Shown here one piece after another: positions 1-14,029 of a stretch of DNA of 64,000 nucleotides. The notes under the pieces are model-generated. The model did no database searches and was not told where the DNA came from. It was given only the letters and a program-made list of their open reading frames with translations. Both the position numbers and the translations under genes were made by a program. Source of the stretch: Collimonas sp. PA-H2 (GTDB lineage Bacteria; Pseudomonadota; Gammaproteobacteria; Burkholderiales; Burkholderiaceae_D); NCBI RefSeq assembly GCF_002564105.1, contig NZ_PDBX01000001.1, positions 992,001 through 1,056,000 of the forward strand, written 5' to 3'. The stretch's first letter is position 1, and the number at the start of each line of letters is the position of its first letter.

Positions 1-1712
1 CGCTCGAGCTTCACCCAGTACGAGGCCGTGGCGCTGGCGATGCCCAGGGCTTTGGTGCCATAGTTCGCGCCACCATACACGGCGAGTTTCTGCATGTTCT
101 GTTCGGCGTTGCCTCTGCTGGCGATGGCCATCCAGGCGCGCGGAGCCCCTGGTTCCAGACTTGTGCGGATCATCACGCCCGCCACTGCGGCCGGACTGGT
201 GTTCTGGACGGACTCGACTTTCGCGATGATGGCGCCGTTGCCGGTGATGGCCTTGTAGGTGAAGTGGCAAGCGTCTTGCGCGCCCCAGAAGATATCGTTA
301 CCCGCTCCCTGCACTATCCATTTGCCGTTGGCGTATGTGGCCCCGCCCGCCGGGGCGGCGCCCCCGATGTCAGCATTGCTGAATCCCGAGGTGATCGAGG
401 TGGTCGACGGAATCGGCAGCGCCGGCGGCGGCGTCGCCTTTGAGGTGTCGGAATCCTTGAGGAACATGAAGCTGTCGCCGTCCACCGGCATCCAGAGGCG
501 TCTCTGCGCGATGAAGGGTGCCTGGAGGCCCTTGCGGAGGGCGTAGGCGCCATAGATCTGGGTCAGCGCCACGCTCCCGCCATTGGCGCCGTTCCAGCCG
601 TGCCCGGTGATGTCGGTGAGGTAGTAGCGATCGGTGGTGCCGAAAGGAAGCGCTGCCGTGGGCACGAGCTCGTTCACTCTCGCGAAATACTCACCCGCCG
701 CCAGCAGGCGGTTGTCAAGATCGGAATAGATGTCGATGCCTTGGCTCCAGAGCGCCTCGGCGAGCATAGTCAGCGACTTGATCTGCCCATAGGCGTGCCC
801 TTGGTCGCGAAGGTAGTCGCCGAGCATGCCAATGTCGTTGGAATTGCGCAATCCGACATGGGCGAGCGTACGAGTCTGATAGACGACCTTGTCCAATGTC
901 TCGAGGTCGTCGTTGTAGATCGCCATCAGTCCAAGAGCGGCGAGGGCCAGTGCGCCCTTGTTGGCGGCCCCGTAGGAGCTATCGCCATAGGGATTCGCTC
1001 CCGGCATCAGGACGTCCTTGAAGTACTTCTTGACGATCGCCGTGTCGGCCTCCGTCCAGCCCGGCCATGTGCCGCGCAGGATGTCCGCGCCGCCCACGAA
1101 CAGGTAAGCGTAGTCGCCCAGATCGAGCATCGACTCGCGACCCGAGAATTCAGTCTGGGTGCTGGCCCACGCGATAAGGATCTCGCGCGCCTTCTTCGCG
1201 TATCGGTCGTCCTGGGTGAAATACCACATCCGCGAAAGATTCCAGATCGCGACCATGTCGTTGCGCCAAGCCTGGAGATTCTCGTTGGGGGCGCGGCTCA
1301 CTTTCGCGAACGGGCCTGCCATGCCATAGGTGAGGTGGGCCTTGCCGTCATTCGCCAACAGGTCGTAGGCGGACTTCCACGGCTCCTTGCCCTGATCGAC
1401 GTACGCCTTGAGAGTTTGGAGATCCGAGAGGGTGAGCGGAGCGCCTGGATGCTTGATAACGCGGACCACTGGAGCACTTCCCACTGGAGTATTTCCCACC
1501 GGAATACTTCCCACCGGAGTACTTCCCACTGGAGTACTTCCCACTGGAGTACTTCCCACTGGAGCACCTCCCACTGGAGCACCTTCCGCTGGCGCACCTC
1601 CCGCGGGGCCGCCTTCCACAGAGGTAATTCCCATCTGTTCGCCACCGCAAGCGCTAAGTATCAGGCAGATAGTGAGCGTTGTAAAAATTTGTTTTTTCAA
1701 AAAAAAATTCAT
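1..1712 (-). CDS. Alginate-lyase-family lipoprotein (3' end outside window)
   Basis: The frame is open from an ATG at 1712 to the window edge, about 570 codons. It starts with a lipoprotein signal (KKQIFTTLTICLILSAC, lipobox LSAC). A low-complexity linker of VGSTP-type pentapeptides follows, then an all-helical domain (LQTLKAYVDQGKEPWKSAYD, NLQAWRNDMVAIWNLSRMWY, ANKGALALAALGLMAIYNDD) typical of the alginate_lyase Pfam family, which cleaves uronate polysaccharides by beta-elimination. Past about residue 430 comes a second domain ending ANYGTKALGIASATASYWVK, like the concanavalin-type DUF1349 module. The protein is probably surface-anchored. The substrate is not readable from sequence, and family members are not all alginate-specific. 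The signal peptide is a diverged relative of those at 2519 and 7342, although this gene points the other way. Confidence 0.8.
   Translation of the reverse strand, partial: MNFFLKKQIFTTLTICLILSACGGEQMGITSVEGGPAGGAPAEGAPVGGAPVGSTPVGSTPVGSTPVGSIPVGNTPVGSAPVVRVIKHPGAPLTLSDLQTLKAYVDQGKEPWKSAYDLLANDGKAHLTYGMAGPFAKVSRAPNENLQAWRNDMVAIWNLSRMWYFTQDDRYAKKAREILIAWASTQTEFSGRESMLDLGDYAYLFVGGADILRGTWPGWTEADTAIVKKYFKDVLMPGANPYGDSSYGAANKGALALAALGLMAIYNDDLETLDKVVYQTRTLAHVGLRNSNDIGMLGDYLRDQGHAYGQIKSLTMLAEALWSQGIDIYSDLDNRLLAAGEYFARVNELVPTAALPFGTTDRYYLTDITGHGWNGANGGSVALTQIYGAYALRKGLQAPFIAQRRLWMPVDGDSFMFLKDSDTSKATPPPALPIPSTTSITSGFSNADIGGAAPAGGATYANGKWIVQGAGNDIFWGAQDACHFTYKAITGNGAIIAKVESVQNTSPAAVAGVMIRTSLEPGAPRAWMAIASRGNAEQNMQKLAVYGGANYGTKALGIASATASYWVKLE
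1465..1607 (-). repeat. 15-bp in-frame tandem repeat encoding a linker
   Basis: About nine degenerate copies of a 15-bp unit (on the minus strand CCAGTGGGAAGTACT and variants) encode a VGSTP-like pentapeptide linker between the lipobox and the catalytic domain of the alginate-lyase-family gene. Units at the centre are nearly identical and those at the edges have drifted, the usual pattern for replication slippage. The reading frame is kept throughout. Confidence 0.85.
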
Positions 1713-1968
1713 TTTATTCAAAAGAAAAAGGTGTCCGTAAGAATAATTTTTCCATCTTGTCAAAAGGGGAAAAGTTATTTTTCCAGAAGGAATTTCGAAT
1801 GGTAATAGGTGCGGAGTCGATACGTGCACAGTCATCTTCGGGCGACACCTTCAGCACAATCCGTGCCATATCGAATTCCCAATACGAAGCCGGATGAATC
1901 AGAAGAACATGCGGAAACCGTGAAGTAACTTTGACTGAAGGACGAAAAAGCCGACAAATTTTGGTTTG

Positions 1969-2085
1969 GGCAAAATCCGTGACCTCGGCTTTGAGCCGCA
2001 GTGCTGCCGGGCCAGCGGCCTCAACCTGGTGACGGCGGCCGTCATGCTGTGGAACACGATCTATCTGGAGCGGACCGCGAGTGCC
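1969..2085 (+). pseudogene. Tn3-family transposase C-terminal relic
   Basis: The translation [20 protein letters not shown] followed by [16 protein letters not shown] matches the conserved C-terminal end of Tn3-family TnpA ([17 protein letters not shown]). Only about 40 codons remain, with nothing of the DDE catalytic core. The frame runs straight into an IS21 istA fragment, so the two relics are fused at about 2085. The product would be non-functional. Confidence 0.8.
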
Positions 2086-2262
2086 TTGGGGATGTCCAGA
2101 AACACCGTTCGGCGCTATCTCCGCTCGGAAATCACCAGTCCATCAGAATCTGCGGGATGTGAGTTTCGACGGATATTACGATAGAGAGGCAGCCTTTGCC
2201 GGGGTATGGCGGGCGGTTCAAACTGACCGAGTCAATTCAGCGAGCAAAAGAACAAACTGGAT
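2086..2262 (+). pseudogene. IS21-family istA relic, copy A
   Basis: [14 protein letters not shown] is the helix-turn-helix of IS21-type IstA. After an internal deletion and frame change, [20 protein letters not shown] and WRAVQTDRVNSASKRT match the IstA segment just before its DDE domain. Compared with copy B (6820-7085) about 118 bp are missing, with the short word TCCATC at the junction. No istB and no terminal repeats are visible. It lies directly upstream of the promoter of the 2519 gene. Confidence 0.75.
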
Positions 2263-2330
2263 TTTCGTTGTTTCGAATTTTGAGTGCAGTTATTGGGGCC
2301 TGTTCAAGTTAAACGAGACTGCCCAGTCGG

Positions 2331-2344
2331 TGTTAGCGCTAACA
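2331..2344 (+). promoter_or_regulatory. LacI-type palindromic operator, copy A
   Basis: TGTTAGCGCTAACA is a perfect 14-bp palindrome with a central CG, the form typical of LacI-family operators. It closely resembles the xyl box reported from Xanthomonas. It lies 175 bp upstream of the start at 2519, and the identical site occurs at 7154-7167. No confident -35/-10 pair could be placed beside it. Sugar-responsive repression or activation is inferred, and no LacI-family regulator gene lies in this window. Confidence 0.55.
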
Positions 2345-2518
2345 AAATTTGTCAGTTTTTTTATTTTGAGGTCAATTTTCTGTCCATATTCTGGTGGCAC
2401 AACTTCGAATCACCTTCGGCCTTTTCGCCTGAATTCGTTCTACTGCGCGTTCGGTATTCGATGTGGCACGGATAGTGCTCATAACGTTTCCGCACGATAA
2501 CTATCGCATGCTAAAAAT

Positions 2519-3757
2519 ATGACATCTCTTTTTAAAAAACAATTCTTTATCACGATCTCTGCCTGCCTGATACTCAGCGCGTGTGGTGGCGGCACGAGTG
2601 ATGCCGGAACAGGCTCTTCCTCAACCGGCACGGGGGCCACTCCAGCTGGCACGGGGTCTACGCCAACCGGCACGGGGTCCACGCCAACCGGCACGGGCTC
2701 TACGCCAAATGTCACTTTCATGGGCAAGAGCACGGTGTTGATCGGAAGAACGTCGATTGATGCTCTTTCGGTTGCCGCACCATTCGACGCTCAGTACCAA
2801 TACGTCGTCAGTCCGCCGGCACCGTCGAGCGACCTGTACACGGCGACGTCCTGCCCTAATGGGACGAACTGGTGGGGATGCGCGGGCGGTAGCATCGGGA
2901 GGCTCATCCCCAACGTCGAAGCCCGCGCTGCGCAGGCCACCTACTTGGGTAAATCGTATCCGCAGACAGTGATGTGGACATGGTTTGAACTCGGCCTCCT
3001 GGCGCCCGTGAACAAGTGGCAGGACGAGGTGACGGCGGTCAACCAGGTCGACCTCCTCACCAAATACCTGAACGACTACCGTTTCTTCCTCCAGAAGATC
3101 GGCACCTCGCACGACATGATTGATCTCGAACCCGATTTTTTTGGTTTCGCGCGAGGGTACGGCCCTCTGGACCAGGACCCGGCGCAGGTGACGGCTGCGA
3201 ATCCGACCGACTGCGGAGACCAGGCGAACACTGTGGCGGGTCTGGCTCACTGCCTGATCGCAATGACCCGCAAGTACGCTCCCAACACGGCCGTCGGCCT
3301 GCACCTCACCTGCTGGGACTGGCCCGGCAACGTGGATAAATGTGCCAAAGATTACGTGACCCTCGGGGGAAAGGGTGCAGACTTCCTCGTCGGGGAGGTT
3401 GAATCCACGGACGCCGGACTCAACGCCAAGCTGGGGAATGGCAACTCATTCTGGAGCGACCAGAAGTGGGCCACGCAACTCGCCTATTGGAAACAGATGG
3501 CCGAGGCGGTCGGCCACCCGATCGTCGTCTGGCAGATCCCGATCGGTAACATGGCACAGAACAACACCGACTACCACTACCAGGACGACAAGGTGGACTG
3601 GCTGTTCTCGCACATGGGCCAGGTCGCGAGCGCCCATGTCGGGGCTCTGATGTTCGGCCAAGGATCGGACCTATCGACCACGGCTGAAACCGACGGCGGC
3701 AACCTGTTCGCGAAGACGATCGCCTATCGCAATGCAGGGGGCACGCCGCTCAAATAG
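2519..3757 (+). CDS. Secreted lipoprotein, putative TIM-barrel hydrolase of unrecognised family
   Basis: 412 aa. Lipoprotein signal peptide with lipobox LSAC, four TGTGSTP heptapeptide linker units (nt 2624-2707), then about 345 residues of a domain I cannot assign. Its homologue in the window is the protein at 4990-6201. The pair share L-E-P-D-F-[FW]-G-F (Glu204 and Asp206 here), a W-Q-x-P-x-G strand (VVWQIPIGN) and HYQDDKVDW near the C-terminus. This spacing looks like a TIM-barrel glycosidase, with a Glu at the end of one strand and W-Q near strand 8, but the fold is inference. The start is fixed by the signal peptide. The 5' part is shared with the GH74 gene, so promoter, export signal and linker were probably acquired by duplication. 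Confidence 0.8.
   Translation: MTSLFKKQFFITISACLILSACGGGTSDAGTGSSSTGTGATPAGTGSTPTGTGSTPTGTGSTPNVTFMGKSTVLIGRTSIDALSVAAPFDAQYQYVVSPPAPSSDLYTATSCPNGTNWWGCAGGSIGRLIPNVEARAAQATYLGKSYPQTVMWTWFELGLLAPVNKWQDEVTAVNQVDLLTKYLNDYRFFLQKIGTSHDMIDLEPDFFGFARGYGPLDQDPAQVTAANPTDCGDQANTVAGLAHCLIAMTRKYAPNTAVGLHLTCWDWPGNVDKCAKDYVTLGGKGADFLVGEVESTDAGLNAKLGNGNSFWSDQKWATQLAYWKQMAEAVGHPIVVWQIPIGNMAQNNTDYHYQDDKVDWLFSHMGQVASAHVGALMFGQGSDLSTTAETDGGNLFAKTIAYRNAGGTPLK
2624..2707 (+). repeat. 21-bp tandem repeat, 4 units
   Basis: Four in-frame 21-bp units encode TGTGATP, AGTGSTP, TGTGSTP and TGTGSTP, a flexible Thr/Gly/Ser/Pro linker. The paralogous 5' block at 7447-7656 has ten units, so unit number changed after the duplication. 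Confidence 0.9.
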
Positions 3758-3927
3758 CGTGTCCCTGCGTGCTGTCGCATAGCCACCCTGGTGCAGCAAT
3801 TATTGCCAGAACGTGAAAAGCGTCGACAGCAAAGGGTTCACTGTGGCTAATGTCGGCAATCAAGCTCTGATGAAAAATTTGCCTGCGGAATGCGTTTGCG
3901 GTGATGCCGCGCTAATTGTTGGGAGTT

Positions 3928-4647
3928 ATGGTTCAGATATCAATATTAAAAAAGATCGCGACGTATTTATTGACGCTTCTATTGTTTTCGTACGCAACAG
4001 CAGCCTTTTGTGAAGACCGGTTTTATGTCATTTGGCGAGATATCGGATTGCCGGATGCAACACGTCTTGTCAGTCAGTATTCAGGCCGTTCGATTCGTTT
4101 GGCGCCAGACGTGGGTGGAACAATTAATCTTGCCTCAAGCGAGCCGCTCTCGCCGGACGAGATTTTTGTCCTGTTCCAAAAATCACTTCGGGAACAAAGG
4201 CTGAGATTGCTGCTTGTTGATGGCAATGAGTATCAGATAGAGAAGGCAAATTCAAATACGTTCAGCGATCAGGCCGCGGCTCCGCATGCCCCAGAAATTG
4301 TCACGTCAGAACCGGCGACGACACTTTCTTCATCTGCAAAATTCATCCATAGCCAACAAGAAGCAGTCGCCAAGCGTCGACATGTGGGCGTTATATTTGC
4401 CTTTGAACAGCGCGCGCAGGCAATTGCTTCGCAACTCTGTGCGGCTGGAGCCGAAGCTATCGTCCTGGCGTCGAACGATCCGGCGGATAAGGAATTTTCT
4501 GTTGTATTGCTGTACCGGGATGATAAAGAAAGTTATCAAGCAATGATTACTGCGGTAGAACGGGCAGGATTGAATAATCTGATTTCCTTGCCGACGTTAC
4601 CTGTTGAATTTTCTATGCAGGGAACCTCAGGTCGACGCAGTCAGTGA
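3928..4647 (+). CDS. Stand-alone secretin N0/STN-like domain protein
   Basis: 239 aa from the ATG at 3928; TTG codons 9 and 12 bp upstream are alternatives. A signal peptide (KKIATYLLTLLLFSYATAAF) leads into about 80 residues that read like the N0 domain of GspD-type secretins: LPDATRLVSQYSGRSIRLAP, DVGGTINLASSEPLSPDEIF, then LFQKSLREQRLRLLLVDGNE. No secretin barrel follows. Residues 110-239 (HVGVIFAFEQRAQAIASQLC and onward) are unrecognised. N0/STN domains bind partner proteins in secretins and TonB-dependent receptors, so a periplasmic adaptor role is possible. It lies between the two related unknown-family lipoproteins on the same strand, and its lower GC suggests acquired DNA. Confidence 0.65.
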   Translation: MVQISILKKIATYLLTLLLFSYATAAFCEDRFYVIWRDIGLPDATRLVSQYSGRSIRLAPDVGGTINLASSEPLSPDEIFVLFQKSLREQRLRLLLVDGNEYQIEKANSNTFSDQAAAPHAPEIVTSEPATTLSSSAKFIHSQQEAVAKRRHVGVIFAFEQRAQAIASQLCAAGAEAIVLASNDPADKEFSVVLLYRDDKESYQAMITAVERAGLNNLISLPTLPVEFSMQGTSGRRSQ

Positions 4648-4989
4648 GTCCGTAGGCTAGCCAGGGAGCATGCATCTTATCTGTGACTGTTCAAGACAAG
4701 AAGGACGCTTTGCGTCACTTTTTCTGACGAAGCGAGAGATCTGACTTTATTGCAAAAACAGGCATGGTTCGTGCCTATGCGTGAGGGCGATGAGGAACAT
4801 GCCAGGCAATGCAACGACGCGTCTTTAGACACAAATGCCCGCAGCGAACCTCCTGGCAAAACTTTACATAGGCTGCGGTTCGGGATGTGCTTCAAGTTGA
4901 AGCTTGATCCGGATCGCCGGTCAATATCCGGAACCAGTGCCGGCGACGCGTGCGGCGACTGGTATTCCTTCAATTTCACGGAGTTTTAG
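4648..4989 (+). other. Intergenic, no gene found
   Basis: 342 bp between the N0-domain gene and the next lipoprotein. I see no convincing ORF, tRNA, terminator with a T-run or palindromic operator. In particular the 14-bp palindrome found upstream of the 2519 and 7342 genes is absent. A good ribosome-binding site (CGGAG) lies just before 4990, so this stretch probably holds that gene's promoter. Confidence 0.6.
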
Positions 4990-6201
4990 ATGACTATGTT
5001 TACCCTGCGACGTACTGCTGCGCTACTGCTTGCATTCCTCCTTTTCGGTTGCGGTGGCGGTGGCGGAAGCGACGGCACTTCAGGCGGTGGTACTTCAGGT
5101 GTTGGTACTTCAGGCAGTGGTACTTCAGGTGGCGGTACCTCAGGTACCGCGGCTTCTGTCGCTTTGGTGGCCAAGCTCGGCAAACCTTCTCGGGTGCTGG
5201 TCGGACTTGGTGCTGGCAATTCCTTGCCGCAAATGCAAAGCCAAAGCATTCACCCGGATATCGTCGACACCTATCTGGTGGGCGTCGGCGCGGGCGCGTG
5301 GCCTACCTGGAACAGTCCCGACGGCGCCTACATCACCTACACCGCGCAGGCCATCCAGGCCTATGGTGCGACCCCGATGTTCACGTTTTATCAGATGGCG
5401 CAGAACGGCGGCGGCAACTTGAGCGGAATCAACGATGCGACGTTCATGAATAACTACTGGGGGCAGGCCCGGCTGATGTATCAACGCATTGCCGCGCTCA
5501 ATGCACCCGTTCTGATCAATCTGGAGCCGGATTTCTGGGGTTTCGTATGGGCGCAGGCGCCCGGGCATGATCCAGCGCAGATACCAGCCGTCGTCAGCAG
5601 CCAGGCCGAATGTAGCGGATTGCCGAATACCGCTGCCGGCATCGGCCAGTGCCTGGTGCAGATGGGCAGGAAGATCGCACCTAATGCGTTGCTCGGATTC
5701 CCGCCCTCGTTCTGGTCTGGCTCCCCGGCTGAGATTGGCGCCGAAATGAAAGCGGTTGGAGCACATCAGGCGGATTTCATCGTTTCCCAGACGAGCGATC
5801 GGGACGCCGGCTGCCTGGAAGTCGCATCGCCTCCAGCGGAATGCGCAGGACGAACCGGGTCGTTCTATTGGGACGAAAACAATATCGCTACACCGAATTT
5901 CCACCAATCGCAGAGCGCGATCTCGGACTATCGTACTGCGCTGAGCAATGGACTCCCGATCCTGTGGTGGCAGACGCCGATGGGCGTACCGTCCTCTACG
6001 CCAGGCGGTACCAATCAGCACTATCGCGACAACCATGTTGACTACATGTTGCGCAACACACAGGAATACGGCGATATCCATACCTTCGCAATCGTCTTCA
6101 GCGCAGGGGGATCCTTCCAAACCACGATCAACACTGACGGTGGACAATTTTTCCGTCTCCTGAGTCAGTATCTCGCGCAAGGCGGCGCCACCCTACGATA
6201 G
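4990..6201 (+). CDS. Secreted lipoprotein, putative TIM-barrel hydrolase, paralogue of 2519 gene
   Basis: 403 aa. CGGAG seven bases before the ATG supports the start. Signal peptide with lipobox LFGC, then a Gly/Ser/Thr linker of GTSGG-type pentapeptides, then a domain homologous to that at 2519: LINLEPDFWGF (Glu179, Asp181), PILWWQTPMGV, and NQHYRDNHVDYML. Four Cys (in SQAECSGLPN, GIGQCLVQM, AGCLEVAS, PAECAGR) may form disulphides, as expected outside the cytoplasm. Identity with the paralogue is moderate, so this is an older divergence than the duplicated 5' block. Its own signal peptide and linker are unrelated to the shared cassette. The family is not recognised; a glycoside hydrolase is inferred from the company it keeps. 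Confidence 0.8.
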   Translation: MTMFTLRRTAALLLAFLLFGCGGGGGSDGTSGGGTSGVGTSGSGTSGGGTSGTAASVALVAKLGKPSRVLVGLGAGNSLPQMQSQSIHPDIVDTYLVGVGAGAWPTWNSPDGAYITYTAQAIQAYGATPMFTFYQMAQNGGGNLSGINDATFMNNYWGQARLMYQRIAALNAPVLINLEPDFWGFVWAQAPGHDPAQIPAVVSSQAECSGLPNTAAGIGQCLVQMGRKIAPNALLGFPPSFWSGSPAEIGAEMKAVGAHQADFIVSQTSDRDAGCLEVASPPAECAGRTGSFYWDENNIATPNFHQSQSAISDYRTALSNGLPILWWQTPMGVPSSTPGGTNQHYRDNHVDYMLRNTQEYGDIHTFAIVFSAGGSFQTTINTDGGQFFRLLSQYLAQGGATLR

Positions 6202-6554
6202 CGATGACAGTGCGCTATCGGCGGCGACCTGGTTGCCCAAGCGTCACAACTTGGGGCACCGGCTTGAACTAAGGATGCGACGTTCCGAAGTATGGTTGTC
6301 GCGCGCCGTCAGCCCGGCAATCAAGTTATGACAAAAAGATCGGCCATGCCGGATGGTAGGCCGTTCTGTCGCCATCCAATTGACGCGGCGTAATGAATTC
6401 CTGACGGCGGTTTCTCGCGCGCTCACTTGAAAATCATGATTTCCTAACGCCCTCCGCTCCTCGGAACGATTAGCATTTCTGCTAAGGGAATATAAAAATA
6501 AAATAGCATTTTTTCAAATGTATCTAATTTCATCTTAACAACCGAAGGCAAGTA
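6202..6554 (+). other. Intergenic, no gene found
   Basis: 353 bp after the second unknown-family lipoprotein. The last 80 bp are AT-rich (AAGGGAATATAAAAATAAAA) and probably carry the promoter of the helix-turn-helix gene at 6555. No terminator, palindromic operator or credible ORF was seen. Confidence 0.55.
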
Positions 6555-6872
6555 ATGAAAAATGCAGACGGCGTGGATGAGTACATTAAAAATGCCAACA
6601 AGATGCTGGACGCCATCATCGCCAAGCTGGGACTAAAAAACGACGTCGCACTTTCACGTTGCCTCGAAGTGGCTCCGCCTGTCATCAGCAAAATCCGCCA
6701 TGGCCGGCTGTGGGTCGGCGCATCCATGCTGATCAGCCTCCATGAAACCAGCGATCTTTCCATTGCCGAACTGAAGAGTTTTTTTGAGGCGCAATCGTAT
6801 GTTCCATGGGGAAACTGGATATCTCCGCTCGGAAATCACCGGTCCATCCTGTGCGGATGGCTATACACCTAG
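6555..6872 (+). pseudogene. Helix-turn-helix protein, 3' end replaced by IS21 relic
   Basis: The first 75 or so residues form a small Cro/CI-like helix-turn-helix protein: KMLDAIIAKLGLKNDVALSR, then CLEVAPPVISKIRHGRLWVG and LHETSDLSIAELKSFFEAQ. Similar proteins in Oxalobacteraceae continue after the ELK/ELR helix with a short charged tail. Here, from about 6795, the frame enters the istA relic and reads unrelated residues to a chance stop. The DNA-binding part is intact, so a shortened product might still fold, but I call it a truncated gene. Confidence 0.7.
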
Positions 6873-7085
6873 TGCAAGCGCCAAATGCGTGTTTCAACTT
6901 TTGGCGTTGCTCAAAACCGAGGCGATAAAGTCATGCAAACAACGACGCGCCTTGAAACAGATCCATCAGGATCTGCGGGATGTGAGTTTCGACGGATATT
7001 CCGACAGGGCGGCAGCCTTCGCCGGGGTATGGCGGGCGGTTCAAACTGACCGAGTCAATTCAGCAAGCAAAAGAACAAACTGGAT
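6820..7085 (+). pseudogene. IS21-family istA relic, copy B
   Basis: YLRSEITGPS (helix-turn-helix end), then [40 protein letters not shown] and VWRAVQTDRVNSASKRT follow the order of IS21 IstA up to the start of its catalytic domain, which is missing. It keeps the segment deleted in copy A, so it is the less damaged copy. The frame stays open into the downstream GH74 gene by chance. No istB or terminal inverted repeat was found. Confidence 0.75.
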
Positions 7086-7153
7086 TTTCGTTGTTTCGAA
7101 TTTTGAGTGCAGTTATTTGGGCTTGTTCAAGTTAAACGAGACTGCCCAGTCGG

Positions 7154-7167
7154 TGTTAGCGCTAACA
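7154..7167 (+). promoter_or_regulatory. LacI-type palindromic operator, copy B
   Basis: TGTTAGCGCTAACA, identical in sequence and distance (188 bp to the ATG, counted from the first base) to the site upstream of the 2519 gene. This suggests that the GH74 gene and the 2519 gene answer to the same LacI-type regulator. Function is inferred. Confidence 0.55.
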
Positions 7168-7341
7168 AAATTTGTCAGTTTTTTTATTTTGAGGTCAATT
7201 TTCTGTCCATATTCTGGTGGCACAACTTCGAATCACCTTCGGCCTTTTCGCCTGAATTCGTTCTACTGCGCGTTCGGTATTCGATGTGGCACGGATAGTG
7301 CTCATAACGTTTCCGCACGACAACTATCGCATGCGAAAAAT

Positions 7342-9870
7342 ATGACATCTCTTTTTAAAAAACAATTCTTTATCACGATCTCTGCCTGCCTGATACTCAG
7401 CGCGTGTGGTGGCGGCACGAGTGATGCCGGAACAGGCTCTTCCTCAACCGGCACGGAGGCCACTCCAGCTAGTACGGGCTCTACACCAACCGGCACAGAT
7501 TCCACGCCAACCGGCACGGGCTCTATGCCAACCGGCACGGGTTCCACGCCAACCGGTACGGGGTCTACGCCAACCGGTACGGGGTCTACGCCAACCGGCA
7601 CGGGCTCTACGCCAGCCAGCACGGGTTCCACGCCAACCGGCACGGGGTCTACGCCAAATAATGGATCCGGTGGTACCTCGACTGGCAGCGCGGCGGCCAC
7701 CTGGACCAGCGTCAAGTGGGGCGGCGGCGGCTATGTCGACGGCCTGATCTATCATCCGACGTCGCCTAACGTCTTGTACGCCCGGACGGACGTTGGCGGC
7801 GCCTACCGCTGGAACCAGACCACGTCGCAATGGGTGCCCATTACCGATGGCCTGGGTTTCAGCCAGGCCGACTCCGCCTTCCACGACGTCGAAAGCATCG
7901 CCCTCGACCCCACCAACGACCAGCTCGTCTACTTGGTCGGGGGCAATGGCGGCAACGGTCGGCTGTATGCTTCCAGCGACCGGGGCAACAGCTGGACGTG
8001 GGTCAGCCTGCCATTCATGGTGAACGGCAACGCTGAGGGCCGGGCGATCGGCGAGCGCCTGATGCTCGATCCGACCAATCCGTCGACGATGTTCTACGGT
8101 TCACGCAATGCCGGCCTGTGGAAGAGCGCGGACTCGGGCCATACCTGGGCGCAGGTCACGGGCTTGTCTTCCCTCAATATGAACACCGCCGCGGTCGGCG
8201 TCGAGCAGATCATCTTCGACAATGGGAACGTGGGCGGCGGCCAGACGACCTGGAACATGTGGGCTGCGGTCGCCCCCGACTACGCCAACGCGGCGAGCCT
8301 GACCTCGACCTTCTACAGGTCCAGCAACGGCGGTTTTTCATGGACGCCGGTCGCGGTGCCGGCCGCGGTCGTCGGGTATTACATCCCGCACTTCGCGCGC
8401 GCCGCCGATGGCATGTACTACGTAGTATTCAACAAGAACGCGGGCCCGGGCGGCGATGGTCCCGGCTACCTCTATAAGTTTAGCGGTAACAATGGCGGTA
8501 TCTGGACCTTGATTAGCAGCACCACCGCGGGCGGCTACGGCGGCGTGTCCGTCTATGGCAGCGGCCCGACCACCCGCGTCGCGCTGGCTGTGACCAATAC
8601 CTGGACCGATTTCCCCGGGCAGAAGATCACCCAGTTGTCCGACAACGCCGGCAGCACCTGGCGCGAAATCGAGTCCCAGATGCCCCACACGCAGACCACC
8701 TCCGGGTACTGGGGCTGGAATGATGACGTCGAGATCGATCCGAACAACCGCGACCACATCATGCACCTTGACGGCCCCGGCATCTGGGAGACGATGAACG
8801 CCTCGTCGGCGACACCGAGCTGGACCTTGAAGGTGAACGGCATCGAGGAGACTGTCACCCTGGCCGTCATCACCCCGCCAGCCGGTGCGACGTACAAGCT
8901 CATCAACAGCGGGGGCGACATCGGCACCTGGGTCCAGACGGACCTCGCGACGATGCCGACCAAAGGCCCCACCACGGGCTGGACCAATGGCAATTCGGCC
9001 GACATGAGCTGGTCCGATCCGCAATACATTGCCGCTGTCGCCACCACGAACGGGTCCGGTGGCGCAGGATACGGATACTGGTCGGGCGACGGCGGCGCCA
9101 CGTGGACGAACTTCGCCACCCTGCCTGCCGGCGCCGCGGCCGATGGGCGCGAAGCGTCCAACATCGTTGTCACCGCACGCAACAAGGCGATCTGGGCGCC
9201 GTCCAATGCGGTGCCGTCCTACACCACCGACAACGGCGCCAGCTGGACGGCGACGAATCTCCCCGCGCTGACGATGTTCGGCGGCTGGACGCGCGCCTAC
9301 CGGCTCGCGGCGGACCGCAAGAACCCGAACAAGGTCTATGCCTACGATTCGGGCGGTGTATGGTGGTCGGGAACGCCAGGCAGGGTCTATGTCTCGACGG
9401 ATGGCGGCCATACCTTCACGCTGAGCCAGGGCTCGGTGTCGGCGGGGCTGCGCGCCAATCCGTGGCACGCCACCTCGATGGCCGTCAATCCGAACGTCGA
9501 GGGCGATGTCTGGCTGACTGACGGCGATACCGTGTATCACTCGGTTGACTCGGGCGCCACCTGGACCAAGCTCAACAACTTCGCGTCTATCTTCAGCAAC
9601 GGCAACGGGTCGCCCGACGCGCAGGGTGCCAGCGTGGTGGCCCTGGGCAAGGCAGCCGTTGGCGCGCCGTACTCGGCCGCAATCTACGTGGTGGGCGTGA
9701 TCAACGGCCAGTGGGGCGTGTGGGCTTCCGACAATGCAGGCAGCACCTGGACCCGCTTTAACGACGATGCCCACCAGTTCGGCGGCATCGGCGCGATGGC
9801 GGCTGACTGGAACATCTACGGCCGGATCTACGTCAATGGCACGGGCCGCGGCTTGCTGTATTCCAATTAA
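7342..9870 (+). CDS. GH74-type beta-propeller glycosidase lipoprotein
   Basis: 842 aa. Lipoprotein signal peptide (LSAC), ten heptapeptide linker units, a Gly/Ser spacer, then a two-propeller architecture with many BNR/Asp-box turns (SSDRGNSWTW, SADSGHTWAQ, STDGGHTFTL, SVDSGATWTK, SDNAGSTWTR). YARTDVGGAYRW with Asp150 matches the family's catalytic-base motif. The second acid is plausibly Asp526 in SGGDIGTW, though that assignment is tentative. GH74 enzymes are endo-xyloglucanases or related beta-glucanases. The frame is open upstream to 6784, but that stretch is the istA relic; the signal peptide fixes 7342. A strong terminator follows at 9891. It is probably anchored to the surface to degrade plant or fungal wall glucan. 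Confidence 0.88.
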   Translation: MTSLFKKQFFITISACLILSACGGGTSDAGTGSSSTGTEATPASTGSTPTGTDSTPTGTGSMPTGTGSTPTGTGSTPTGTGSTPTGTGSTPASTGSTPTGTGSTPNNGSGGTSTGSAAATWTSVKWGGGGYVDGLIYHPTSPNVLYARTDVGGAYRWNQTTSQWVPITDGLGFSQADSAFHDVESIALDPTNDQLVYLVGGNGGNGRLYASSDRGNSWTWVSLPFMVNGNAEGRAIGERLMLDPTNPSTMFYGSRNAGLWKSADSGHTWAQVTGLSSLNMNTAAVGVEQIIFDNGNVGGGQTTWNMWAAVAPDYANAASLTSTFYRSSNGGFSWTPVAVPAAVVGYYIPHFARAADGMYYVVFNKNAGPGGDGPGYLYKFSGNNGGIWTLISSTTAGGYGGVSVYGSGPTTRVALAVTNTWTDFPGQKITQLSDNAGSTWREIESQMPHTQTTSGYWGWNDDVEIDPNNRDHIMHLDGPGIWETMNASSATPSWTLKVNGIEETVTLAVITPPAGATYKLINSGGDIGTWVQTDLATMPTKGPTTGWTNGNSADMSWSDPQYIAAVATTNGSGGAGYGYWSGDGGATWTNFATLPAGAAADGREASNIVVTARNKAIWAPSNAVPSYTTDNGASWTATNLPALTMFGGWTRAYRLAADRKNPNKVYAYDSGGVWWSGTPGRVYVSTDGGHTFTLSQGSVSAGLRANPWHATSMAVNPNVEGDVWLTDGDTVYHSVDSGATWTKLNNFASIFSNGNGSPDAQGASVVALGKAAVGAPYSAAIYVVGVINGQWGVWASDNAGSTWTRFNDDAHQFGGIGAMAADWNIYGRIYVNGTGRGLLYSN
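7447..7656 (+). repeat. 21-bp tandem repeat, 10 units
   Basis: Ten in-frame 21-bp units encode variants of TGTGSTP (also ASTGSTP, TGTDSTP, TGTGSMP, TGTEATP). The middle units are nearly identical at the DNA level. They form the flexible linker between the lipid anchor and the propeller domain. Length variation between strains is likely. Confidence 0.92.
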
Positions 9871-9890
9871 GATCGCTTGATCGCGGGTGG

Positions 9891-9920
9891 ACAAGGGCGG
9901 CTGCGGTCGCCCTTGTTATT
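9891..9920 (+). terminator. Rho-independent terminator of the GH74 gene
   Basis: ACAAGGGCG and CGCCCTTGT form a 9-bp stem around an 8-base loop, followed by TATTTTG, 20 bp after the stop codon at 9870. Confidence 0.75.
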
Positions 9921-10930
9921 TTGGGTCGCTGGATAGCGACGCTGGCGCGGTTGACGCCCTGGCGCAATCTGCCCGGCATCTTGGCCCAGATGGCGTGCTA
10001 CGGCAAGACGGTCAAAGCTGTTGGAACGGTGAGAAAAACGGGATTCTGAAATTTCCGCCGGTTTGAGCGTAGAACCTCAGTTAATGAGCCAAACTAGAGG
10101 ATTGAACCGACACCATGAGCCTGCGCGCGCAGTCATCCCCCCGCCACGCCTGCCCGCTAAATTGGTCGCTTTCGACTCAAATTTTTTGAAGTGACGCACA
10201 TAGGAGAAACCTAGCGTCGAAGGGCGCAAATACGTCGCAAAAAAGTGACGCAAAACGACGCACGCAGAGGGGGAAAAATGGGGTTGTGGTGTGAGCGATG
10301 AAAAGCCGATTTCAGGTTTGACCTCGGGGAAAGCATAACCTTTATAACCAAGCGATTTTATACGCTGTAAGTCGTTGATTTATATAGCTTTATGTAGTTA
10401 TAGTTGAACTATAACTTTTGATAACTTAAAACATAACCAGATTCCAAGTCATTGATTTATATAGTTATTTATTTTTAAAGAAGTTATCTTTAATTTTATA
10501 ACCTAGTTATGCCAAGGTTATGCCGAGGTTATAGTTGGCCGAGTCTTGCAAAGCCTTATGCAACAAGGGTTTTCAGCCGATTTCTGCAAAAGGTTATAAA
10601 GGTTATGGTTTTCCCGAGGGGTACTTTATTTTAGCGATAGTCAGTAAAAACCACCAATTTATTGCCTTATGGTAATTTTAAATTGCTCGTTAGTGTTGCT
10701 GCTGGCATTAGTTGCAAACTGATCGCTGCGCCGGTTCCGGCTGACCTGATCTATCCTGATAGGTGCGTTGAACTTACAGTCCGTGCATGACTGATTGCTA
10801 CGACTTGCAACGGGCAGTAAGCGACCTACAGCCTCCCGTCGACGTACTTCAAAACGGACATTTAACGCTTCAATCAGGCGGTGCTTTAGCGGCCTGCGGC
10901 ATTGATTTGTTAAGTGGTTTTTCCACCTGG
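9921..10930 (+). other. Long gene-free stretch, partly very AT-rich
   Basis: About 1 kb without a convincing gene. At 10190-10275 there are several TGACGCA/ACGTCGCA-like words. From 10320 to 10640 base composition becomes strongly AT-rich, with a long inverted repeat and repeated ATAACC/GGTTAT words. From 10641 to 10930 I see only a weak minus-strand ORF that crosses into the IS66 left end, and I do not call it. The stretch may be the non-coding remnant, such as an origin or attachment region, of a lost mobile element. Confidence 0.5.
10322..10619. repeat. 28-bp inverted repeat enclosing AT-rich GGTTAT-iterated DNA
   Basis: The arms 10322-10349 and 10592-10619 match as reverse complements at 26 of 28 positions; the core is CATAACCTTTATAACC. 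The 242 bp between them hold further ATAACC words in the left half and GGTTAT words in the right half, plus self-complementary AT stretches such as TATAGTTGAACTATA. Iterated hexamers in AT-rich DNA framed by an inverted repeat recall a replication origin or an element end. No replication or integrase gene adjoins it. Confidence 0.7.
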
Positions 10931-11014
10931 TGGGTAAGCGTCCTCTCTGAGCCGTCTTGACGGGGTTATTTGTGGCGGACGTTAAAATGGCGGTTTTGTA
11001 CAAGTTATTCAGCC

Positions 11015-11383
11015 ATGGACGACTATCCTCGCTTCACAATCAATCGCGGCATGATCATTCTCGTGCCGAAGCAGCCCGTTCTCGACTGGATCATACGGGT
11101 CGATCCTATCCCATCGAATTTGACGCTTGAGGAAATTCGTCGGGAACAGGACGGTTTTCTGGTGTCGCAAGAGAGCATTGAGACTACCGAGGATGCCAAG
11201 AGTTGGGTCTACCGCCGCTGGAAGATGTTTTTCGAGCTGCAGTTAAACGATTGGTACACCGAAGAATCGTGGTGGCCACAGAAACGCAGCCTGAAGATGT
11301 TCAAGGAGTGGTTTGATATCCATTACCATCCGATGCTGTGGGATATGATGCAGGAAGCGATCGAGCACGAAGACTGGGATTGA
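11015..11383 (+). CDS. Hypothetical protein, IS66 passenger
   Basis: 122 aa from the ATG at 11015 (MDDYPRFTINRGMIILVPKQ). The protein is acidic and Trp-rich (WVYRRWKMFFELQLNDWYTE, EESWWPQKRSLKMFKEWFDI, HEDWD at the end), with no signal peptide or membrane segment. It lies inside the inverted repeats of the IS66 element, convergent with tnpC, and the two stop codons are directly adjacent (11381-11383 and 11384-11386). I do not recognise the family. Such tight packing argues that it travels with the element. The function is unknown. Confidence 0.7.
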   Translation: MDDYPRFTINRGMIILVPKQPVLDWIIRVDPIPSNLTLEEIRREQDGFLVSQESIETTEDAKSWVYRRWKMFFELQLNDWYTEESWWPQKRSLKMFKEWFDIHYHPMLWDMMQEAIEHEDWD

Positions 11384-12898
11384 TCAGGCAAGCTGCCCGA
11401 CGATATTCCAGGGCAGGAAGTCATCAACCTTGTTGACGGGATGATCGGCAATATGAGTAAGGACGTAGCGTAGCCATACTTCGGGATCAATGCCGTTGAG
11501 TTTGGCCGTTCCGATAAGGGTGTAGATTGCTGCAGCACGTTCGCCACCGCTGTCGGCGCCTGCGAAGAGATAGTTGCGACGACCAATGGCAACGCCGCGC
11601 AGCGCTCGCTCTGCCGCTGAATTGTCGATTTCAATCGCGCCATCCTCGCAAAAACGGATCAGCGCCGGCCAGCGATTGAGCGCGTACAGAATCGCCGCCG
11701 TTGTATCGGATTTGCGCGACAGCGTTGCCATGGTGGTGTGTAACCATGTTTCAAGTTCATCGAGTAAGGGGCGTGATCGGGTACGCCGTGCCAGCAATCG
11801 TTCATCCGGCGGCTTGCCCCGGATCTCTGCCTCGATAACGTAGAGTTCGCCGATACGGCGCAGTGCTTCGGTCGTCACCGCCGAGGGGCGCGCATCATGC
11901 AAGTCGTAGAACTTGCGTCGAGCGTGCGCCCAGCATGCGGCCTCTTGTACCTTGCCGCTGTCATAGATGGCATTGAAACCGGCGTAGGCATCGGCTTGCA
12001 GCGTGCCGGAGAAGTCGGCCAGATGCGTTTGCGGGTGGATGCCTTTGCTATCCGGTGTGTAAGCAAACCATACCGCAGCAGGAGTTAGCGACCCGGACGG
12101 TCTGTCATCGCGCACATACGTCCACAGCCGCCCGGTCTTGGTCTTACCGTTGCCAGGAGCGAGCACAGGAACCGGCGTGTCATCAGCGTGGATCTTGTCG
12201 GCCTCCATCACATGGCGCCGAATTGCTTCAACCAAGGGGCGTAGCAAAGCACTGGTAGCACCAACCCAATCAGCCAGCAGCCCGCGACGCAGTTCCACGC
12301 CTTCACGGGCATAGATGACCGATTGTCGATACAGTGGCAAGTGATCGGCATATTTCGATACCAGCACATGAGCCAGCAAGCCAGGACCGGCCAGACCGCG
12401 CTCGATCGGACGGCTCGGCGCCGGTACCTGCACGATACCATCGCAGCAAGCGCAAGCCATCTTCGGGCGGATGTGGCGGATTACTTTGAAGCTGCCCGGA
12501 ATGAATTCGAGCTGTTCTGAGACATCTTCGCCTAGGTAACGCAAGCCACCGCCACAGGACGGGCATGCTTGAGCTGCTGGCGGATACACCCGCTCTTCGC
12601 GGGGCAGATGCTCTGGCAACGGTTTGCGCTGCGCTGACGTGCGAGGTGTGAGATCCCGCTGCGTCTGAGCCGCGGATTCACCGGCATCCGCTTGCAAGTC
12701 TTCCAGCCGCAACTCAAGCTGCTCGATTTGAAGATCAAGTTTCTCTGATTTGCGCCCGAACTGCATGCGTTTGAGTTTAGTAATGAGCAGTTTGAGCTGC
12801 TCGATCTCCGTGGTATGCGTGGCGATGATCGCGTCACGCTCCCTGATCATGGCCTTCAGGGCATCGATGTCATCAGGGAGGTCGGCGTGCGTTGGCAT
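11384..12898 (-). CDS. tnpC: IS66-family transposase TnpC
   Basis: 504 aa from the ATG at 12898; a TTG 18 bp upstream is possible. Order: N-terminal leucine-zipper-like coiled coil (IATHTTEIEQLKLLITKLKR), zinc-finger motif (ACPSCGG with a later MACACCDG), then the DDE domain with IHADDTPVPVL (first Asp), LQADAYAGFNAIYD (second Asp) and the C-terminal SAAERALRGVAIGRRNYLFA (Glu). It ends with the IS66 C-terminal segment LNGIDPEVWLRYVLTHIADH. The length is normal for IS66 and the catalytic triad is present, so the enzyme should be functional. Confidence 0.95.
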   Translation of the reverse strand: MPTHADLPDDIDALKAMIRERDAIIATHTTEIEQLKLLITKLKRMQFGRKSEKLDLQIEQLELRLEDLQADAGESAAQTQRDLTPRTSAQRKPLPEHLPREERVYPPAAQACPSCGGGLRYLGEDVSEQLEFIPGSFKVIRHIRPKMACACCDGIVQVPAPSRPIERGLAGPGLLAHVLVSKYADHLPLYRQSVIYAREGVELRRGLLADWVGATSALLRPLVEAIRRHVMEADKIHADDTPVPVLAPGNGKTKTGRLWTYVRDDRPSGSLTPAAVWFAYTPDSKGIHPQTHLADFSGTLQADAYAGFNAIYDSGKVQEAACWAHARRKFYDLHDARPSAVTTEALRRIGELYVIEAEIRGKPPDERLLARRTRSRPLLDELETWLHTTMATLSRKSDTTAAILYALNRWPALIRFCEDGAIEIDNSAAERALRGVAIGRRNYLFAGADSGGERAAAIYTLIGTAKLNGIDPEVWLRYVLTHIADHPVNKVDDFLPWNIVGQLA

Positions 12899-12928
12899 GC
12901 TATGGAGTTTACGCAAATGCAGGGATGT

Positions 12929-13276
12929 TTACAACCCCGACTGTGGACGTTGCGTGCGTTCCGGACGTCGCCAATCGATGCCTTCGAGCAGCATGGAGAG
13001 CTGCGCTTGGGACAGCGAGACAGTGCCGCTGCTGGCCTGTGGCCAAATGAACCGTCCGCGTTCGAGGCGTTTGGAGAGCAGGCATAACCCGTCGCCGCTC
13101 CACCACAGAATCTTGAGGATGTCGCCGCGTCGACCTCTGAAGACGAACACATGACCGCTGAAGGGATCTTCGGCCAGCGCCGTTTGCACTTTGGCAGCTA
13201 AACCATTGAAACCGCTTCGCATATCGGTCACGCCCGCCGCAATCCAAATACGAGTACCCGCCGGCAGGCCGATCAT
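12929..13276 (-). CDS. tnpB: IS66 accessory protein TnpB
   Basis: 115 aa, the usual size. [20 protein letters not shown] and [14 protein letters not shown] at the N-terminus, then [20 protein letters not shown] and [13 protein letters not shown], are IS66 Orf2 signature stretches. The start overlaps the stop of tnpA by four bases, indicating coupled translation. TnpB is needed for transposition of IS66 elements, but its biochemical role is not settled. Confidence 0.95.
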
Positions 13277-13668
13277 GGCCGCAAGTGTTCCAGCACGAGA
13301 GACAAGACAGCCGTATCAACATGACCTTCAAGACGGAGCTTCGCTGCGCCGACCACCAATTCAATCACCCCAGTACCTGGTGCTGCCGGACCATCGCTAC
13401 CGGTTGGTGGTACGGCACTCACCGGAGAGGGAGCTAGTAGCACCGGCAGCAGCTGGCAGCCAGTGTCGGCGGCCTCCCCGAGCCGTCCCTCTTTGAACAG
13501 CTTGCGCCATGCAAAAACTTGATTGGCATTGACATCATGCTGGCGAGCGATGCGCGCTACGGAAACGCCAGAGGTCAATGATTGTTCAACAACGGCGCGT
13601 TTGAATGCGACCGGGTGTTGTCGATAAGTGCCGCGCTTTGGAGTGACCGACTGAATAATTGTGCCCAT
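13273..13668 (-). CDS. tnpA: IS66 accessory protein TnpA
   Basis: 131 aa from the ATG at 13668; an in-frame GTG at 13686 is the alternative. The N-terminal helix-turn-helix ([20 protein letters not shown], then [20 protein letters not shown]) is that of IS3/IS66 OrfA proteins. A variable Pro/Ser/Gly-rich middle and a C-terminal conserved [18 protein letters not shown] follow. It probably binds the element ends. Confidence 0.92.
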
Positions 13669-13717
13669 GATTGAATTTGTGGGCACAATCGATTCGTGCC
13701 TTCAGTCTCAATCATCC

Positions 13718-14029
13718 TCAACTCAGCATGCCTTGTCCAGACGGTACTGGGATGACGCTTACCCAAAATCCGAACGGTCTATCTTCTTTTTTTTCTATAT
13801 TTTTCCAAAGACCCGGCTGTCCATATTTATATTCGCCGGTAAAAATGGCTCGAATACAGCCCGCCAGTATCAATAAGCCGGTGCCCGCGGAAAATACTCC
13901 CAGACACGATTTCGTGATACTTGGCGGTCCAATAAAAGCGCCTGCGACAGCCCCAAGAATAAGAATTAAAAATGCAAGAAAAGTATAGTCCAGTAACTTC
14001 CTATTTTTTGTCGACAGTGGTGATGGCAT
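13718..14029 (-). pseudogene. Small membrane protein truncated by IS66
   Basis: The frame starts at 14029 with AGGAT just upstream. It encodes two hydrophobic helices (LLDYTFLAFLILILGAVAGA and FSAGTGLLILAGCIRAIF), then GEYKYGQPGLWKNIEKKEDR. From about residue 89 the codons lie inside the IS66 right terminal repeat (WVSVIPVPSGQGML), so the original C-terminus is lost. I do not recognise the family. The upstream half is intact. Confidence 0.65.

Follow-up and report, generated by a model that had tools for sequence, protein, structure and literature searches.

A shared promoter, lipoprotein signal peptide and repeat-linker block in front of unrelated predicted secreted-enzyme genes in Collimonas

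Genes that join one front end to different mature parts have been described in other bacteria. The erp genes of Borrelia burgdorferi (OspE/OspF/Elp, with their "upstream homology box") combine one promoter, leader, and localisation sequence with many recombining mature parts of independent origin (PMC10016077, PMC12018966). Similarly, N-terminal export signals are common to different families of Pseudomonas syringae type III effectors, and chimeras formed by terminal reassortment are described as widespread (PMC6460904). Here, we analyse a 64,000-nucleotide window of Collimonas sp. PA-H2, in which two nearly identical copies of a block consisting of a regulatory region, a lipoprotein signal peptide, and a repeat-coded linker stand in front of two different predicted secreted enzymes. 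Like the erp genes, these are lipoprotein genes with a shared promoter and leader before unrelated mature parts. However, the erp genes are described as lying on cp32 prophage plasmids and encoding outer-surface proteins termed adhesins, whereas the Collimonas block is chromosomal, precedes predicted polysaccharide-type enzymes, and has a sigma54-type promoter and a repeat linker at the junction. The effectors use type III secretion, whereas lipoprotein export and carbohydrate-type enzymes are predicted in Collimonas; homogenisation within one genome is not mentioned for effectors in the PMC6460904 passages. GH74 xyloglucanases and GH28 polygalacturonases belong to the same families as domains found behind the block, but the relatives among the matches listed have N termini different from that of the block. 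A literature search that covered few subscription papers gave no description of such a shared front end in Collimonas in the titles and abstract openings listed. The principle is known from Borrelia erp and Pseudomonas effectors, and it is new for secreted carbohydrate enzymes. With a probability of roughly 0.75, we favour the reading that a genus-specific front end is homogenised within genomes by gene conversion and that catalytic domains have been spliced onto it.

One front end before different enzymes

A sequence-only reading of the window had described 2141-2710 and 6964-7659 as a nearly identical pair that diverges at the end of the linker, and this description was confirmed together with its coordinates. 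The block at 2141-2710 matches the second copy at 6964-7531 with 96% identity over 568 bp (E 1.2e-272), and the ungapped comparison starting at 2139/6962 gives 11 mismatches within the first 470 bp. Copy 1 spans 2139-2710 and copy 2 spans 6962-7659. The identical run TCTACGCCAAAT is kept in both until 2710 and 7659, respectively, with divergence directly after it at the same codon. Past the junction, copy 1 passes immediately into an unrecognised domain, whereas copy 2 first carries an extra GH74-specific linker, NNGSGGTSTGSAA, and then the propeller. The linkers contain 4.1 units of 21 bp in copy 1 versus 10.1 in copy 2. The same reading had called the second domain a GH74-type propeller, which holds, since its best solved relative is 6p2m (residues 115-841, E 4e-106) and the likeness covers the whole domain. 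It had called the first "TIM-barrel-like", which found no backing: this domain, TIM1, has no family match in Pfam, NCBIfam, or the PDB, and "TIM" is used here as a label only. GH26, the name that one source gives to the TIM1 relative P0020, was matched neither by TIM1 (Pfam, NCBIfam, PDB) nor by P0020 (Pfam). The diverged version of the signal peptide that had been noticed in a minus-strand lipoprotein starting at 1712, here called PL, is indeed present, with 77% identity over 79 bp (E 4.8e-10).

The distribution of the block was examined in 60 genomes. Some match was obtained in 13, all of them in the genus Collimonas, and in 0 of the 45 genomes outside it. Among the 15 Collimonas genomes (G labels denote genomes and L labels loci, G000 being the genome of the window), G001 and G004 have no match; the part derived from the IS21 transposase gene istA is matched alone in G002, G007, G010, and G014, and the palindrome segment alone in G013. 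A promoter or signal peptide of the block is present in the other eight: G000, G003, G005, G006, G008, G009, G011, and G012. Likewise, a 24-position palindrome pattern searched in about 85,000 species genomes, a set that may lack close kin of the window's genome, gave 6 stretches, all in Collimonas. In total, 20 regions were fetched, and 19 block copies and 10 PL copies (the diverged form) were examined, matches to the istA part alone being excluded. Four weak signal-peptide matches (L088-L091) were rejected as block copies, as a regular-expression scan detected no such promoter there. In the window's own genome, the full-length block occurs at the two window sites only.

The survey of domains behind each copy, which the sequence-only reading had proposed as a BLASTN-type check, revealed many loci with different domains in the genus and supports a cassette-like recurrence. 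TIM1 and GH74A (the GH74-type domain of the window) each follow the block in five genomes (G000, G003, G005, G008, and G012). A second GH74 form, GH74B, is intact in G006 and G012, split or shortened in G009, and, in G005, reduced to a remnant that lacks a large internal stretch; as GH74A and GH74B are 47-48% identical, they were counted as one family, with 9 copies behind the block, two of them broken. A GH28 polygalacturonase follows the block in G003, G006, and G011 (PF00295, E 1.7e-42 for the G006 protein). Thus 17 of the 19 block copies lead into an enzyme or enzyme remains, and the other two, in G005 and G012, are orphans with no enzyme behind them. All 10 copies of PL, which carries Alginate_lyase and F5/8C domains, have the diverged version of the block; 8 of them lie in divergent orientation next to a block copy, and at least 3 are broken or shortened. 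The gene opposite PL is TIM1 in G000, G005, G008, and G012, GH74A in G003, and GH74B in G006 and G009. Since TIM1, GH74, GH28, and alginate-lyase-like genes are found behind block copies, one front end would serve them all, in a diverged form for the alginate-lyase-like genes. The block or its diverged form therefore precedes four unrelated families of predicted secreted enzymes at several loci, and one predicted promoter and leader before unrelated mature proteins is the arrangement seen in erp-like cassette families. In the two orphans (L055:5379-5773 in G005 and L056:9495-9882 in G012), the block breaks off at a common point beyond the signal peptide, and the promoter no longer has its -12 GC.

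Sigma54 promoters have GG at -24 and GC at -12, with 10-bp spacing. A sigma54-type site, TGGCNYGGATNGTGC, is found in 25 of the 29 copies and is missing from the GH74A copy of G012, the two orphans, and one PL copy of G005 (PLb); its conservation identifies it, by sequence, as a predicted promoter. Of the 19 block copies, 17 contain the palindrome TGTTAGCGCTAACA or a closely similar sequence, as against 0 of the 10 PL copies; it may serve as a LacI-type operator or as a site for an activator. Both elements are present in 15 block copies, and there the sigma54-type site starts 130-134 bp past the palindrome start. The stretch from promoter to start codon takes either a short form (about 50 bp) or a long form (about 130-170 bp). 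Across the 15 genus genomes, the combined pattern of palindrome and sigma54-type site was counted 17 times, in 8 of them, against 0 for the reversed control, and two of these occurrences (G003 and G012) stand before GspD-like/TIM2 genes and not before a block. An exact palindrome at L106:5558-5571 of the window's genome lies between a sugar-kinase-like and a LacI-family-like gene, both named by eye, and 4 of 5 further palindrome sites examined lie 37-48 bp from a sigma54-type site. At L065:7582-10100 (this genome) and L093:6459 (minus strand), an exact palindrome is found 37 bp from a sigma54-type site, before a large regulator-like gene; the L065 gene matches BTAD and AAA models and is a candidate co-regulated regulator.

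Likeness of the blocks by genome and by enzyme

When the blocks of TIM1 and GH74A are compared, they resemble each other by genome. In the 150-bp segment from palindrome to promoter, each of four TIM1 blocks is nearest, among four GH74A blocks, to that of its own genome (4/4), and the reverse comparison of GH74A with TIM1 blocks gives the same outcome (4/4). The same-genome pairs are 100.0, 97.3, 97.3, and 95.9% identical over this segment, versus at most 96.0% for cross-genome pairs; 2.6 Mb separate the two genes in G003. A tree of 9 blocks recovers the pairs of G000 (support 99/98), G003 (91/89), and G008 (88/96) and rejects a single TIM1 clade (approximately unbiased test, p-AU 0.00074). 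In a tree of 14 blocks, a TIM1 clade (p-AU 0.0011) and a GH74A clade (0.0017) are both rejected, and same-genome pairing in G008 and G005 is not rejected (p 0.17 and 0.11). Outside this pair of genes, the GH74B and PL signal peptides of G009 are 97% identical, compared with at most 83% in other comparisons. The trees cover 14 and 9 of the 19 block copies: the GH74A copy of G012, which has no promoter, the three GH28 copies, and GH74B of G012 are in neither, and the two orphans, GH74B of G006 and G009, and the GH74B remnant of G005 are in the larger tree only. The clustering by genome and the rejected ortholog clades are indirect evidence for recombination among members, as in erp-like families, and the likeness by strain of the front ends of two enzymes would be explained most simply by genes copying from one another. 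Repeated replacement of the block would give the same pattern as gene conversion.

Several observations, however, weigh against homogenisation within genomes and splicing at the linker. The TIM1 block of G003 is slightly nearer to the TIM1 block of G005 (96.6%) than to its same-genome GH74A partner (95.9%). Likewise, when -188..+72 is compared, the GH74A block of G005 is slightly nearer to GH74A of G000 (94.9%) than to the TIM1 block of G005 (94.6%). The 9-block tree does not resolve the G005 pair, while the 14-block tree supports only the G000 pair well, with weak support for G003 (73/89) and with G008 and G005 left open. Moreover, the tested tree groups were named after the neighbour table had been inspected, and the case for conversion consists of four genomes and two genes. 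The window's own genome also has a GH28 gene (L108, about 6455, plus strand) that is 82% identical to the cassette GH28 of G006, with a different signal peptide and no block visible within 330 bp upstream. Finally, close matches do not always begin or end at the linker: that of GH74B in G006 ends at about the promoter, and that of TIM1 in G003 starts just before the palindrome. As the G006 match ends near the promoter and the G000 match at the linker end, joining at the linker would be one of several routes.

Junctions, relics, and the origin of the parts

The catalytic domains have relatives in other organisms. TIM1 is 84% identical to a protein in a Leifsonia metagenome-assembled genome and 76% identical to one in Kitasatospora, and the metagenome protein P0005, listed at 90% identity to TIM1, has an unrelated lipoprotein-like N terminus. 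With the low-complexity filter on, 115 of 120 TIM1 and 120 of 120 GH74A homologues among the matches listed begin to align within the junction zone. The cassette signal peptide is found, among the same listed matches, in 1 of 120 for TIM1 (P0001), 0 of 120 for GH74A, and 1 of 120 for GH28, the last being the Collimonas query's own record; a looser signal-peptide motif marks 7 of the 120 listed GH28 proteins. The GH74A figure covers the listed relatives only, because no other Collimonas GH74A with the cassette signal peptide is among these 120. With the filter off, 12 of the 120 listed TIM1 homologues, including the Collimonas record P0004, start at query residues 65-69, most of those printed doing so at the domain's own Met, and their N termini are uncertain. 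The metagenome protein P0001 joins the cassette signal peptide and a GH74A-type linker to a TIM1 domain and looks like a further natural chimera; it was excluded from the counts, its longest contig being 3,549 bp and a mis-assembly being possible. Among 145 genomes of the family, strong TIM1 matches came from G000, G003, and G005 alone, the carriers G008 and G012 probably not having been drawn. The GC content is 44% in the 5' DNA of the block, 61% in the TIM1 domain, and 65% in the GH74A domain. On the sequence evidence, the cassette and the enzyme domains have different histories.

The 5' edge of the window copies carries an istA relic. The relic itself has no Pfam or NCBIfam match. However, the Collimonas fragment L013, with which it shares 69% identity over 86 aa, matches the IS21 transposase model NF033546 (E 9.7e-19, below the model's curated cut-off); the name "istA relic" given in the sequence-only reading is upheld through this fragment. 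Upstream of copy 1, a Tn3 transposase end was identified (PF01526, E 5.7e-6). The tract shared in the window includes the istA stretch, which is also present in the GH74A blocks of G005 and G008, whereas the TIM1 blocks of G003, G005, G008, and G012 match only from block position 62 or later. The likely direction is therefore from GH74A to TIM1: in the window, the GH74A block with its istA relic probably replaced the TIM1 block or served as the template for it.

These relics bear on the proposal that the block moves as a unit by means of IS21-derived sequences and lands before new genes. Fragments of istA stand at the 5' edge of several copies, Tn3 debris lies at copy 1, the breakpoint of the G003 TIM1 copy is different, and TIM1 occurs with its block at a different locus in that genome, all of which would suit a mobile cassette. 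However, the istA sequence that flanks many copies is a truncated relic, and a similar fragment occurs without the block in G002. The block had no match among 50,697 phage records and a single one, to the istA part only, among 72,556 plasmid records; no inverted repeats of at least 40 bp were found in 1-14000, where shorter ends and target-site duplications were not searched. In addition, the palindrome pattern is confined to Collimonas among the species genomes, and nearly all copies (17/19) lead into an enzyme or its remains. Neither a mobility gene of the block's own nor defined ends are apparent, only truncated istA and Tn3 relics. The sequence-only reading had suggested domain swapping within repeat linkers or movement via IS21 sequences: the junction in the repeat linker and the near absence of the signal peptide from the listed outside homologues fit splicing, while mobility of the block and movement by IS21 find no support. 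We consider a mobile cassette very improbable.

It is quite unlikely that the blocks are old paralogues, duplicated before the species split and conserved since, with each domain joined in a single ancient event. The blocks of GH28, G012 GH74B, and PL are well separated and could be such old joinings, but the trees do not group TIM1 blocks or GH74A blocks into ortholog clades (p-AU 0.0007-0.0017), which rejects this history for both unless selection alone matches the blocks within each genome. A duplication confined to the window's strain, which the sequence-only reading had named as its own refuting case, could account for the 99% identity of the window copies over -330..+72, the top figure in the comparison of the 19 block copies; it is refuted, with next to no chance left to it, by the many loci at which the block precedes different enzymes in 8 of the 15 genus genomes. 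The same-genome likeness could also have been inherited from an already matched donor pair if whole genes were exchanged with their blocks between Collimonas species. The TIM1 domain DNA is 96.9-99.0% identical between species, compared with 94.7-96.9% for an rpoB stretch, and is higher in 10 of 10 species pairs; moreover, TIM1 was found in 5 of the 15 genomes. The donor pair, however, must itself have been homogenised, which shifts the same process to another genome, and we regard this exchange as unlikely to be the explanation.

A predicted route and its setting

In the reading that we prefer, a front end homogenised by gene conversion, the module would comprise the regulatory palindrome, the sigma54-type promoter, the leader, the lipoprotein signal peptide, and the linker rich in Thr, Gly, Ser, and Pro. 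Homologous recombination between copies within a cell would keep the modules alike, so that different enzymes would go on sharing a single switch and export route. Horizontally acquired catalytic domains would be attached to the module by splicing; in the window this would have happened at the linker end, where joining may be favoured because the DNA is repetitive and GC-rich and ends in a common terminal unit. A sigma54 polymerase with its activator, perhaps together with a LacI-type protein, would fire the copies together. With its LSAC lipobox, recognised by eye, the product would enter the lipoprotein export pathway, and the linker would hold the enzyme off the membrane; the predicted outcome is a lipoprotein enzyme of the outer membrane, borne on a flexible stalk. 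A broader proposal, which we put forward only tentatively and consider doubtful, is that Collimonas maintains a permanent acceptor for enzymes of foreign origin, with a 5' half made uniform by conversion and a repeat linker as the splice site, from which an incoming enzyme might gain promoter, signal, and stalk in one step.

The features of the window are collected in Table 1. The second lipoprotein, TIM2, has a domain 28% identical to TIM1 with a different signal peptide and linker, and it serves as an internal control without the block. The GspD-N0-like gene adjoins the TIM2 lipoprotein gene in several genomes (window 3916-6201; L052, L053, L060, L066, and L067); the pair has a palindrome and a sigma54-type site upstream in G003 and G012, and in the window it lies directly 3' of TIM1. 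Just upstream of copy 2, a small open reading frame at 6555-6872 has, by eye, the look of a helix-turn-helix regulator and gave no Pfam match. Further on, at 11384-13686 on the minus strand, three open reading frames resemble by eye what we take to be an IS66-type element.

Table 1 Features of the Collimonas sp. PA-H2 window around the two block copies
Feature	Position	Strand	Basis or remark
Divergent lipoprotein PL: diverged signal peptide, 15-bp-repeat linker, Alginate_lyase and F5/8C domains; leaves window	1..1712	-	domain search
Sigma54-type site of PL	1853..1868	-	pattern search
C-terminal remnant of a Tn3 transposase that continues into an N-terminal istA remnant, 5' of copy 1	1981..2138	+	PF01526
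Copy 1 istA (IS21 transposase) relic, 5' block edge	2139..2254	+	same stretch in copy 2
Copy 1 palindrome TGTTAGCGCTAACA, candidate LacI-type operator or activator site	2331..2344	.	pattern search
Copy 1 sigma54-type -24/-12 site TGGCACGGATAGTGCT	2464..2479	+	begins 133 bp past palindrome start
Copy 1 predicted lipoprotein signal peptide MTSLFKKQFFITISACLILSAC	2519..2584	+	lipobox by eye
Copy 1 linker, 21-bp repeats (TGTGSTP), junction ACGCCAAAT at end	2585..2710	+	repeat analysis, alignment
Copy 1 unclassified domain TIM1 (345 aa)	2711..3757	+	homologue comparison
GspD-N0-like gene, without its own block in the window	3916..4647	+	domain search
Second lipoprotein TIM2	4990..6201	+	comparison with TIM1
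Copy 2 istA relic	6962..7077	+	match to copy 1 and to Collimonas fragment
Copy 2 palindrome TGTTAGCGCTAACA	7154..7167	.	pattern search
Copy 2 sigma54-type -24/-12 site	7287..7302	+	pattern search
Copy 2 signal peptide, identical type to copy 1	7342..7407	+	sequence comparison
Copy 2 repeat linker, longer than in copy 1, with junction ACGCCAAAT at end as in copy 1	7408..7659	+	repeat analysis, alignment
Copy 2 GH74-type domain GH74A, preceded by a short GH74-specific linker	7660..9870	+	profile and structure-database matches

How transferred enzymes acquire regulation and export is usually guessed, whereas in this case genome sequences make it possible to trace the module, the junctions, and the homogenisation. 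Internal controls are at hand in TIM2, the own-genome GH28 gene without the block, and the orphans with their decayed promoter. The arrangement predicts a sigma54 regulon that would include unclassified enzymes, and it offers a naturally used signal and linker that may be suited to attaching enzymes to a Gram-negative cell.

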